DNA from: Buchnera aphidicola (Sarucallis kahawaluokalani)
GTDB taxonomy: Bacteria > Pseudomonadota > Gammaproteobacteria > Enterobacterales > Enterobacteriaceae
Assembly (NCBI RefSeq): GCF_005080725.1
Contig: NZ_CP032999.1
Coordinates: 213,605-277,604, forward strand
DNA length: 64,000 bases
Reading direction: 5' to 3'
The notes beneath the pieces are model-generated. The model was not told the DNA's origin. It was given only the letters and a program-made list of their open reading frames with translations, and searched no databases. Positions 46,962 through 50,945 of this stretch are shown here, piece by piece (within the stretch, counting starts at the first letter, position 1; each line of letters begins with the position of its first letter). The translations under genes and the position numbers were made by a program.

Positions 46962-48494
46962 TTATATTATAAAATAAAAGTTTTTTAATCGAATCCCAAA
47001 TATAAATAATACTAAAAAATATATTACCCAAGAAAACATAAATATTATCAATAAACTAAAAATTTTCCACCAAATAGTACCAATATTCCAGTTCGGAAAT
47101 AATACGAAAAAAGTAATTAATACAATAAACATCACTAATGACGAAAATATTACTTTAAATAGAAAAACTGGCCAATCAGACTGTAATTTAAATAAGCCCT
47201 TGCGATGTAAATTCCAATACAATAAAATACAATTTAACCAAGCTGAAAAACTAATAGATAATGATAAACCTAAGTTACCAAGTTTCATAAATAAAAAAAA
47301 TAAATTAATACCTTGTGTAAATATTATTGTTATTAATGAAATAACCATAGGTGTTTTCATATCTTGACGTGCATAAAATGCAGGAGATAGAATTTTTACT
47401 AAAATCAAACCCAATAATCCTATGGAGTATCCTACCAAAGATCTTTCTGTCATCATGGTATCAAATTTTGTAAATTTCCCATATTGAAATAATACTGTAA
47501 TTAACGGGTGAGATAAAACATATAAAATAATTGAACTAGGTAATCCTACCATCACACTAATTCGAATACCCCAATTAATTAATTGACAAAATTGATTATA
47601 TTTATTATTAACAATACTTTTTGTTAGAGAAGATAATAAGATAGTACCAAGTGAGATTCCTAATATTCCTACTGGAAATTCAATTAATCTATCTGCATAA
47701 TACATCCAGGATACTGAACCTGAAATAAATAAAGATGATAATACGCTATTAATTAATAAAGAAATATGATTAGCTGAAATTCCTAAAATACCAATACCAA
47801 TTTTCTTTAATAAGTTTGATATTTTTAATATTTTAAAATTTATTTGTGGTAAAACAAACATATTAATTTTTTTTAAAAACAAAAATTGGTATAAAAATTG
47901 CAATATACCGCCAAAAATTACAGACCAGGATAAAGCAAAAATTGGAGTATAAAAATATTTTGTAAAAAACAATGAAAATATTATCATACTACTATTTAAT
48001 AAAATTGGTGAGCATACTGGAATAACAAAAAAATTCCAAATATTTAAAACAGCTGTCGTTAAAGATGATAACGAGATAAAAAAAATATAAGGAAAAGTTA
48101 TTCTTAATAATTCTACAGTTAACTCAAATAATTTTTTTTTTTTTAAAAATCCAGGAACAATAATACAAATAATATAAGGAGCGCAATATATACCTATAAT
48201 AGTTAAAAAAAACAATACTAAAATCATAAAACCTAAAATAGAAGAAAAAAACTTTCGGGTGAAATAAATATTTTTTTTTTTATATTGAATAAGAATAGGA
48301 ATAATAATTTGTAAAAACGCTCCTTCTGCAAAAATTCTTCTTAATAAATTAGGTACTTTAAAAGCTATAAAAAATGCATCCGTTGATACAGATACTCCAA
48401 ATGTATAAGCAATAATAAAATCACGAATAAAACTTAATATTCTTGAAAAGAAAGTCACTAAACTAATATTAATAAACGATTTTAAGAGATTCAT
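46962..48494 (-). CDS. murJ: Lipid II flippase MurJ (MviN)
   Basis: MurJ flips the peptidoglycan precursor lipid II across the inner membrane. The 510 residues (E. coli 511) form about 14 membrane segments of the MOP exporter superfamily. The family N-terminus is well kept (ISLVTFFSRILSFIRD, TDAFFIAFKVPNLLRRIFAEGAF given in parts: FIAFKVPNLLRR and IFAEGAF), as is FYARQDMKTP in the second half. Runs of 13 and 11 A on the coding strand (48132-48144 and near 48271) encode basic loops. It lies downstream of nothing on its strand, so it is probably transcribed alone. Its presence implies that some peptidoglycan is still made. Confidence 0.95.
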   Translation of the reverse strand: MNLLKSFINISLVTFFSRILSFIRDFIIAYTFGVSVSTDAFFIAFKVPNLLRRIFAEGAFLQIIIPILIQYKKKNIYFTRKFFSSILGFMILVLFFLTIIGIYCAPYIICIIVPGFLKKKKLFELTVELLRITFPYIFFISLSSLTTAVLNIWNFFVIPVCSPILLNSSMIIFSLFFTKYFYTPIFALSWSVIFGGILQFLYQFLFLKKINMFVLPQINFKILKISNLLKKIGIGILGISANHISLLINSVLSSLFISGSVSWMYYADRLIEFPVGILGISLGTILLSSLTKSIVNNKYNQFCQLINWGIRISVMVGLPSSIILYVLSHPLITVLFQYGKFTKFDTMMTERSLVGYSIGLLGLILVKILSPAFYARQDMKTPMVISLITIIFTQGINLFFLFMKLGNLGLSLSISFSAWLNCILLYWNLHRKGLFKLQSDWPVFLFKVIFSSLVMFIVLITFFVLFPNWNIGTIWWKIFSLLIIFMFSWVIYFLVLFIFGIRLKNFYFII

Positions 48495-49089
48495 ATGTTA
48501 ATAAAATTTTTAGATGAACGTAAAATTTAAAAATAAAGAGTTATCCCCTAAAATATATTATTATTTCACAACATCAAATAGAATAATTAATTTTTTAGAT
48601 ATGACAATATAAACTGTATAAAAATCTTACATTCATATATTTAATAAATATCTATATATAACAAATTTTATGACAACGCACAAAATTAAATTGAGTTAAA
48701 TATCAAGGTATATGTAATGTAACATTTAAATATTATAAATCATTATTCAAATGATTTAATTTTAATGTTGCTAATTTATATATTTCAATATATTATATTT
48801 TACAAGATAATAAAATAAAATTACAATTTAACAATTAAGTATGAAATGTATAAGAAATAATATATAATAAAATATAAATATTAGAAAAGAATAAATTTAA
48901 AAATATATTTCAAAAAATGATATAATAGTTATAAAATTATTTTTATTAAATAATATCTTTGATAAAATTCATTTTATTATAACTAAAGCGTTTATTTTAA
49001 CATAAAATTAGTAAATGATCAAGAAAAATAAAATTAAAAATATTAACTATAATACATTTGAAAAATGTAATACTATAAAAGGTACGTAA
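48495..49089. other. Intergenic region between murJ and flgD (595 bases)
   Basis: No gene, RNA or clear remnant is seen. In other Buchnera this position holds the start of the flagellar flgNABC genes, so the DNA is probably what is left of them. I searched by eye for C-terminal FlgC-like sequence before flgD and found none. A short hairpin ACATTT/AAATGT lies near 49055. Confidence 0.5.
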
Positions 49090-49767
49090 ATGAATATTAT
49101 TAATAGTATTAATATTAAAAAAATGTCTACTATTTATTTTAAAAATAAAAATATCATATCTCATTTAAAAAATACAATACAAAAAAAAAAAAATATTCAA
49201 GTATCAAATAAAAATATCTATGATCAAAAAATACAAAAAATAAAAAAAAACAATATATCTAAAAAAACAATAGATCAAGTCAGTCTAGAAAATAATCTAA
49301 TTAATATTAATAATTCAACAATTTATAATATCAATGAAGAAAATTCTAATTTTTTAAATCTATCAGAATTAATTGGACATAATGTACTAATCCCTGGGTC
49401 TAAAATTACTTATATTAAAAATACCAATATAATATATGGTTATTTCTTACCTAAATATACAACATCGTTATTAATACAAATTAAAGATCAAAATCATCAT
49501 TTAATTTTTTCGAATTTAATTAATACACAAAAACCTGGAAATTATACATATTACTGGAATGGAGAAGTTAATAATATATGTAATTTAAACTCAGGTTTAT
49601 ATGAACTTTCAATCCAAGCTGAAAACGAAAATGGACCATTTTATGTACAACCTTTAGTTCATGGTATCGTGAAAAGTATTGATTATGATCCGAATGCTAA
49701 TGCATATAAAATTAATTTAGGTATTACTGGAAAAGTTGATATAAAAGATATTAAAAGAATATTTTAA
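49090..49767 (+). CDS. flgD: Flagellar hook-capping protein FlgD, N-terminus diverged, isolated from all other flg genes
   Basis: FlgD caps the growing flagellar hook. From about residue 93 the 225-residue protein aligns well with E. coli FlgD: LIGHNVLIPGSKI, GKAG-like TQKPGNYTYYWNGEVN, NSGLYELSIQAENENG, VQPLVHGIVKSI and the end LGITGKVDIKDIKRIF. The first 90 residues do not: the family signature FLTLLVxQLxNQDPxNPM, needed for export and early function, is absent and is replaced by a lysine/asparagine/isoleucine-rich stretch with an A13 tract at 49181-49193. AAGG stands 7 bases before the ATG, so it looks translated. No other flagellar gene is in the window. Either the cap domain has a separate use or the gene is in decay. 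Confidence 0.85.
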   Translation: MNIINSINIKKMSTIYFKNKNIISHLKNTIQKKKNIQVSNKNIYDQKIQKIKKNNISKKTIDQVSLENNLININNSTIYNINEENSNFLNLSELIGHNVLIPGSKITYIKNTNIIYGYFLPKYTTSLLIQIKDQNHHLIFSNLINTQKPGNYTYYWNGEVNNICNLNSGLYELSIQAENENGPFYVQPLVHGIVKSIDYDPNANAYKINLGITGKVDIKDIKRIF

Positions 49768-50009
49768 AATATATAATCAAATAAGTGTTTTATTATCTTT
49801 TAATATAAAATTTAAAAAATTATTTTAAAAGATTTAATAAAATTATATAAAAAAATTTATTTAAAATATAAAAATCACTTTCAAAATTAATATATTCTTA
49901 AAAATAATTTTAATATTTAAAAAAAATATAAACATATTAATATACTAAAAAAAAATATATAATCTTTTTTATATCATATACAATTAAATACTTAAAAATT
50001 CGGAATATA

Positions 50010-50945
50010 ATGCATAAAAAAAATATCTTCAATATAAAAATTACTTATGATGATCAAAAACAAAGAATAGATAACTTTGTACGTAAAAAATTTCATAAAA
50101 TCCCGAAAAACGCATTATATAAAATGCTTAGAACAGGTGATATAAAAATTAATACAAAAAAAATTCAACCAGATTATAAGTTAGAAGTAGGAGATACTTT
50201 ATCATATTATAAAACAATTAAATTAAAAAATAACAATAAAAATATTTTATTAAATAATACAATGAAGAAAAAATTTTTATCTTACATTTTATTTGAAGAT
50301 AATCATTTGTTGATTCTTAATAAACCAACTGGCATACCAGTACATGGTGGCAGTGGGTTAAAATTTGGAATTATAGAAATATTTAGATTACTATACTCAC
50401 ATTCTCATTTTTTAGAACTAATACATCGAATAGATCGAAATACTTCTGGTATATTAATGCTAGCAAAAAAAAAATCTACTCTAAAAAATATACATCAGCA
50501 ATTTAGAGAAAATAAAATTTTTAAAAGTTATACTGCAATTTTACATGGCATTCTAGATTATAATATAAAACACGTGTCTGTACCGATTTATAAAAATATG
50601 AAAAATGGAAAAAAAATCATTACAGTTAATCCATTAGGTAAACAATCTACTAGTACTTTTAAATTTAAAAAAAAAATTAATCAACATACCTTAGTAGAAA
50701 TTATTCCTCGCACTGGTAGGACACACCAAATACGAGTACATGCTGCACATATCGGGCACCCAATTGTTTTTGATGATATATATGGTCATTGCAAATTAGA
50801 TAATAATATTCAAGTGAAAAAAAAATATAAACAAATTTTATTACATGCATCTAAAATTATTTTTTATCATCCTGATAATAATAAAAAATACCACATTTAT
50901 GCACCTTTAGAAGACAAATTTATAAAATTTTTTCAAAACATATAA
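50010..50945 (+). CDS. rluC: 23S rRNA pseudouridine synthase RluC
   Basis: RluC makes pseudouridines 955, 2504 and 2580 of 23S rRNA. The 311-residue protein (E. coli 319) starts with an S4-like RNA-binding domain (to about residue 65) and has the RluA-family catalytic block ELIHRIDRNTSGILMLAKK with the catalytic aspartate D142, plus RTGRTHQIRVHAAHIGHPI. A weak GGA lies before the ATG. In E. coli and other Buchnera rne (RNase E) is adjacent upstream; here the 242 bases before rluC are empty and the next gene is flgD. Confidence 0.95.
   Translation: MHKKNIFNIKITYDDQKQRIDNFVRKKFHKIPKNALYKMLRTGDIKINTKKIQPDYKLEVGDTLSYYKTIKLKNNNKNILLNNTMKKKFLSYILFEDNHLLILNKPTGIPVHGGSGLKFGIIEIFRLLYSHSHFLELIHRIDRNTSGILMLAKKKSTLKNIHQQFRENKIFKSYTAILHGILDYNIKHVSVPIYKNMKNGKKIITVNPLGKQSTSTFKFKKKINQHTLVEIIPRTGRTHQIRVHAAHIGHPIVFDDIYGHCKLDNNIQVKKKYKQILLHASKIIFYHPDNNKKYHIYAPLEDKFIKFFQNI

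Follow-up and report, generated by a model that had tools for sequence, protein, structure and literature searches.

The Buchnera aphidicola of Sarucallis kahawaluokalani has kept one gene of the flagellar flgN-flgK cluster, flgD. The gene is probably a true orthologue in its ancestral place, and what selection maintains would be its C-terminal beta domain alone, not a hook cap. The N-terminal part of FlgD has lost its family block and has the composition of intergenic DNA. The C-terminal domain is conserved in the one other genus genome that carries flgD (G005), and no rod or hook family was found in either genome. The symbiont genome is one contig of 428,356 bp. Coordinates refer to the window, the whole stretch of 64,000 nucleotides that was analysed (NZ_CP032999.1, positions 213,605 to 277,604).

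The flgD gene is a complete frame of 225 codons (49090..49767, forward strand) between conserved murJ on the left (46962..48494, reverse strand) and conserved rluC on the right (50010..50945, forward strand), which also served as an independent clock. The murJ side of other Buchnera carries flgN-A-B-C-D-E-F-G-H-I-J-K, so flgD is in its ancestral place; judged by this position and its whole C-terminal domain, it is a true orthologue. The first-pass annotation had proposed that flgD alone is left of the cluster. This was confirmed by tblastn with flgN and flgA-K of other Buchnera, which returned flgD as the sole flg match between murJ and rluC and no other flg gene or remnant in this interval, flgH and flgI included. 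The intergenic segments at 48495..49089, the site of flgN, A, B, and C in relatives, and 49768..50009, the site of flgE-K and rne, hold no flg remnant by the same search. The flgD ATG lies immediately 3′ of an in-frame TAA, so no missing upstream part is hidden in frame. The good ribosome binding site noted earlier is a Shine-Dalgarno-like aaaagg (49077..49082, forward strand), and flgD of G005 has aaagg at a similar distance from its start. The probability of a 225-codon open frame arising by chance in such AT-rich DNA is ~1e-11 to 1e-12.

Codons 96–225 and the stop (49375..49767, forward strand) encode the tudor and Ig-like (FnIII) C-terminal domain of the FlgD family, which was recovered with NCBIfam, Pfam, and PDB chains. 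Residues 83–225 align to positions 55–197 of the 197-position NCBIfam profile NF005176 (E = 3.3e-19), in agreement with the earlier description of this domain as well kept. The Pfam families FlgD_tudor (PF13861; 6.6e-6) and FlgD_ig (PF13860; 2e-5) match slightly below their curated cut-offs. Matches to solved FlgD structures include 7bhq (3.8e-9) and 7eh9 (1.1e-8).

Codons 1–95 (49090..49374, forward strand) lack the FLTLLxxQxxNQDP block, as the first-pass annotation had recognized. The best score of an 18-column block profile over residues 1–95 is −20.6 (shuffle p 0.81), compared with +64.7 for an intact FlgD from Buchnera. A scan of the three forward frames upstream of flgD found no block. 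A 13-A run lies within this part (49181..49193, forward strand); a block hidden by it in another frame was rejected, since the profile scan found none. NFLNLS at residues 87–92 is similar to the docking motif and was taken as chance; it is short and sits at the start of the C-terminal domain. GC content of the N-terminal part is 13.0% vs 11.8% in flanking intergenic DNA (p 0.60), and that of the C-terminal part is 24.1% (p 9e-8 vs intergenic). The N-terminal halves of the Sarucallis and G005 proteins are hardly alignable, slightly better than shuffles (z 4.3). The pentamer-stalk helix region is unalignable and neutral in composition; its single-sequence AlphaFold pLDDT of 37 was produced with no alignment and is not usable. 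G005 FlgD keeps FLEIL, a relic of the block (shuffle p 0.0075 at 18 columns), and G005 FlhB keeps its C-terminal domain. FlgD of the Thelaxes Buchnera (G101, L193:1147-1809) has no recognizable N-terminal block despite the presence of flgB, flgC, flgE, and a full FlhB. The Sarucallis genome has lost both the block and the FlhB C-terminal domain; strict coupling of the two losses, with n = 2, is countered by the Thelaxes genome and was rejected.

Membrane components of the flagellar export gate are encoded elsewhere in the genome. FlhA (695 aa), a fliO-fliP fusion (356 aa), FliQ, FliR, and the membrane part of FlhB are all open frames. FlhB is cut to 245 aa and its C-terminal domain is gone, with no remnant of that domain found. 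The fliF frame stays open over 384 codons; beyond them the same frame goes on but is interrupted by stops, which leaves no intact MS ring gene. The FliI ATPase is missing from the genome, and a search of the fli locus returned no matches to fliG, fliH, fliI, fliJ, or fliN. The rod and hook families PF06429 (Flg_bbr_C) and PF00460 (Flg_bb_rod) have zero matches in this genome and in 10 congeners; a hook or rod for FlgD to act on (FlgE, FlgG) was thus not found by these families in the Sarucallis genome. The earlier suggestion that the other genes had moved elsewhere fails for rod and hook genes genome-wide, and holds for the export gate, which lies outside the window. The genome search leaves the idea of an orphaned flgD standing for the flg cluster. 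It does not extend to the whole flagellar system, because flhA, fliOP, fliQ, fliR, and truncated flhB survive.

Several related features were observed in the gate loci of the genus. Among the seven genomes with a gate, five (L015:2169-2906, L053:1105-1848, L054:1036-1821, L056:967-1806, and L057:1174-1911) have an FlhB that ends at nearly one position, shortly after the membrane part, and FlhA is full length. fliO and fliP form one frame of 356–357 codons in five genomes (L014:8774-9844, and the same place in L048, L049, L050, and L052) and are separate frames in G005.

Two of 11 genus genomes, the Sarucallis genome and G005, carry flgD. A tree built from nine proteins encoded in the mnmG-atp-gyrB region does not place them as sisters: the flgD-less pair G001/G002, and then G010 with others, branch between them. 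The gene was therefore lost at least five times, if never regained. Both carriers retain gate genes; flgD is present in two of seven gate-bearing genomes and none of four gate-less genomes, an association that is not significant. The remnants retained differ among congeners. Between murJ and rluC, flgH and flgI frames remain in G003 (L041:4022-5603) and G004 (L042:3844-5626). Both genomes are without FlhA, FlhB, and FliP, which makes these frames orphan L- and P-ring genes with no export gate. FlgI is 346 codons long in G004 and 259 in G003. The fliG-H-I-J region of G001 (L048:4399-7656) is in fragments, and the same genes are open in its sister G002; the pair is a useful series of recent pseudogenes.

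The C-terminal domains of Sarucallis and G005 FlgD are 52% identical in amino acids and 61/84/55% identical at codon positions 1/2/3. Synonymous sites look saturated, and identity at fourfold sites is 7/21; with agreement this low, recent flgD transfer from one carrier to the other was rejected as the source of the high identity. The N-terminal parts are 40% identical in a pairwise, low-complexity alignment. In an eight-taxon alignment, identity of the pair is 0.33 in the N-terminal part and 0.52 in the C-terminal domain. Other Buchnera with rod and hook genes, Thelaxes excluded, range over 0.32–0.69 and 0.21–0.48, respectively, with the N-terminal part more conserved in all but one of ten pairs (G100-G129, about even). 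Relative to FlhA, the C-terminal domain distance is 1.01 for the Sarucallis-G005 pair (bootstrap 0.77–1.34) vs 1.9–2.5 in the ten other pairs, and is below these in 1000/1000 bootstraps. RluC identity is 56% for the pair vs 57% among three outgroups, and C-terminal domain identity is 52% vs 28% among the same outgroups. On the Sarucallis branch, the C-terminal domain (0.47) is not accelerated compared with RluC (0.70) and FlhA (0.63), a measure that does not resolve relaxation late on the branch. The cytosolic half of FlhA is 31–34% identical to other Buchnera in the Sarucallis genome vs 39–46% in G005, and appears somewhat relaxed in the Sarucallis lineage. The first-pass annotation had proposed a check for a pseudogene; codon-position identities and the domain contrast place the C-terminal domain far from neutral and contradict neutral evolution over the whole frame. 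The result for the two halves represents one independent genome pair.

Constraint on FlgD has thus swapped from the N- to the C-terminal part, and for this reason a new role for the domain, one of three readings offered earlier, is the best supported; the swap would reflect a new or secondary role. Rod and hook would have been lost first, which would have freed the N-terminal part of constraint and let it drift. The drifted part would have carried the export docking motif and the helix from which the cap pentamer is built; with these lost, FlgD could not work as a hook cap. On the tudor/Ig-like domain, constraint would have tightened beyond that seen in Buchnera with rod and hook genes, and FlgD would most likely serve as a small binding domain in some other setting. 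The combination of a conserved C-terminal half with a lost hook, docking motif, and FlhB dock is unlike simple decay of a hook cap and fits retention of this domain for another purpose. The N-terminal domain of FlgD is essential for capping, the first 86 residues alone complement partly, and FlgD74-232 is unable to form a pentamer or cap (PMC8595650). The half conserved here is partly dispensable for capping. There is close to an even chance that the beta domain was recruited to a new function in Buchnera without a hook. In that case selection would have shifted from the cap-forming N-terminal half to the C-terminal one ahead of the split of the two surviving lineages, yielding a one-domain protein. 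Against retention for a new role, flgD is missing from nine of 11 genus genomes and its role is therefore dispensable in most lineages. Block loss and dock loss are also not strictly matched, as the Thelaxes genome has no block, a full FlhB, and hook genes, and this form of FlgD occurs in two genomes only, hence the single independent pair.

Late decay, in which FlgD is a leftover that seems conserved since its function was lost recently, would make N-terminal drift a first sign, with loss to follow as in nine congeners. Progressive loss around flgD (fliF stops, unmatched fliG/H/I/N, truncated flhB), the repeated independent losses on the tree, and the neutral composition of the N-terminal part agree with it. 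It is nonetheless unlikely: identity of the C-terminal domain is 52% at a divergence where synonymous sites seem saturated, its constraint exceeds that in Buchnera with rod and hook genes, the Sarucallis branch shows no acceleration in it, and the open frame has a chance probability of ~1e-11. The earlier reading of a last step of decay accordingly does not apply to the C-terminal domain and applies to the N-terminal part and the neighboring system, with its broken fliF and unmatched fliG/H/I/N. That FlgD still caps an unrecognized hook is effectively refuted: the C-terminal domain is complete by profile, but Flg_bb_rod and Flg_bbr_C occur nowhere in the genome and the cap-forming N-terminal part has diverged past recognition.

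The partner of a FlgD kept for its C-terminal domain could be the residual gate, FlhA-FliPQR-FlhB(N), which is a plausible but unproven guess held at well under even confidence; a non-flagellar partner in the cytosol is no less possible. At the gate, FlgD would be a leftover substrate or plug, and the FlhB C-terminal dock would no longer be needed. A specific form, compatible with retention of the C-terminal domain, is that FlgD is exported through FlhA-FliPQR-FlhB(N) by its hydrophobic extreme N-terminus; this is possible but doubtful. Gate genes are present in both carriers, and the proteins start with MNIINSI (Sarucallis) and MNVFSNI (G005). Residues 36–40 of Salmonella FlgD dock on the FlhB C-terminal domain, and in its export the N-terminal hydrophobic signal outweighs this docking motif (PMC8983047). 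Hydrophobic N-terminal residues are, however, likely by chance because the sequence is very isoleucine-rich, and in the Sarucallis genome the MS ring gene is broken, FliI is lost, and the FlhA cytosolic half is somewhat relaxed. This relaxation and the non-significant distribution (2/7 vs 0/4) also count against any link between FlgD and the gate.

For the role of leftover flagellar parts in Buchnera, flgD offers a defined protein to seek. This lineage has kept a gate and a single "cap" protein, with measurable selection on a domain dispensable for capping, which argues that retention unrelated to a basal body is possible. Compared with the hook-cap protein FlgD, the likeness is position-based orthology and a full C-terminal domain; the N-terminal docking motif, cap helix region, and hook are missing, and Pfam scores are below cut-off. 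Buchnera of Cinara cedri, with 15 flagellar type III secretion proteins reported (PMC3246468), shares a strongly reduced flagellar set and a small genome. Its set is larger than the one found here, where flgD is accompanied by a broken fliF and by five gate genes that are intact or partly so. Pea aphid Buchnera has reduced flagellar basal bodies and 26 flagellar genes (PMC8109811); gene family, gene places, and loss of filament and motor are common to both. The Sarucallis genome differs in having no rod or hook, no rings found in the flg locus, and only gate genes and flgD left. Across Buchnera, flgD is described as often shed and rod genes as well kept (PMC8109811), an order that is reversed in the Sarucallis genome.
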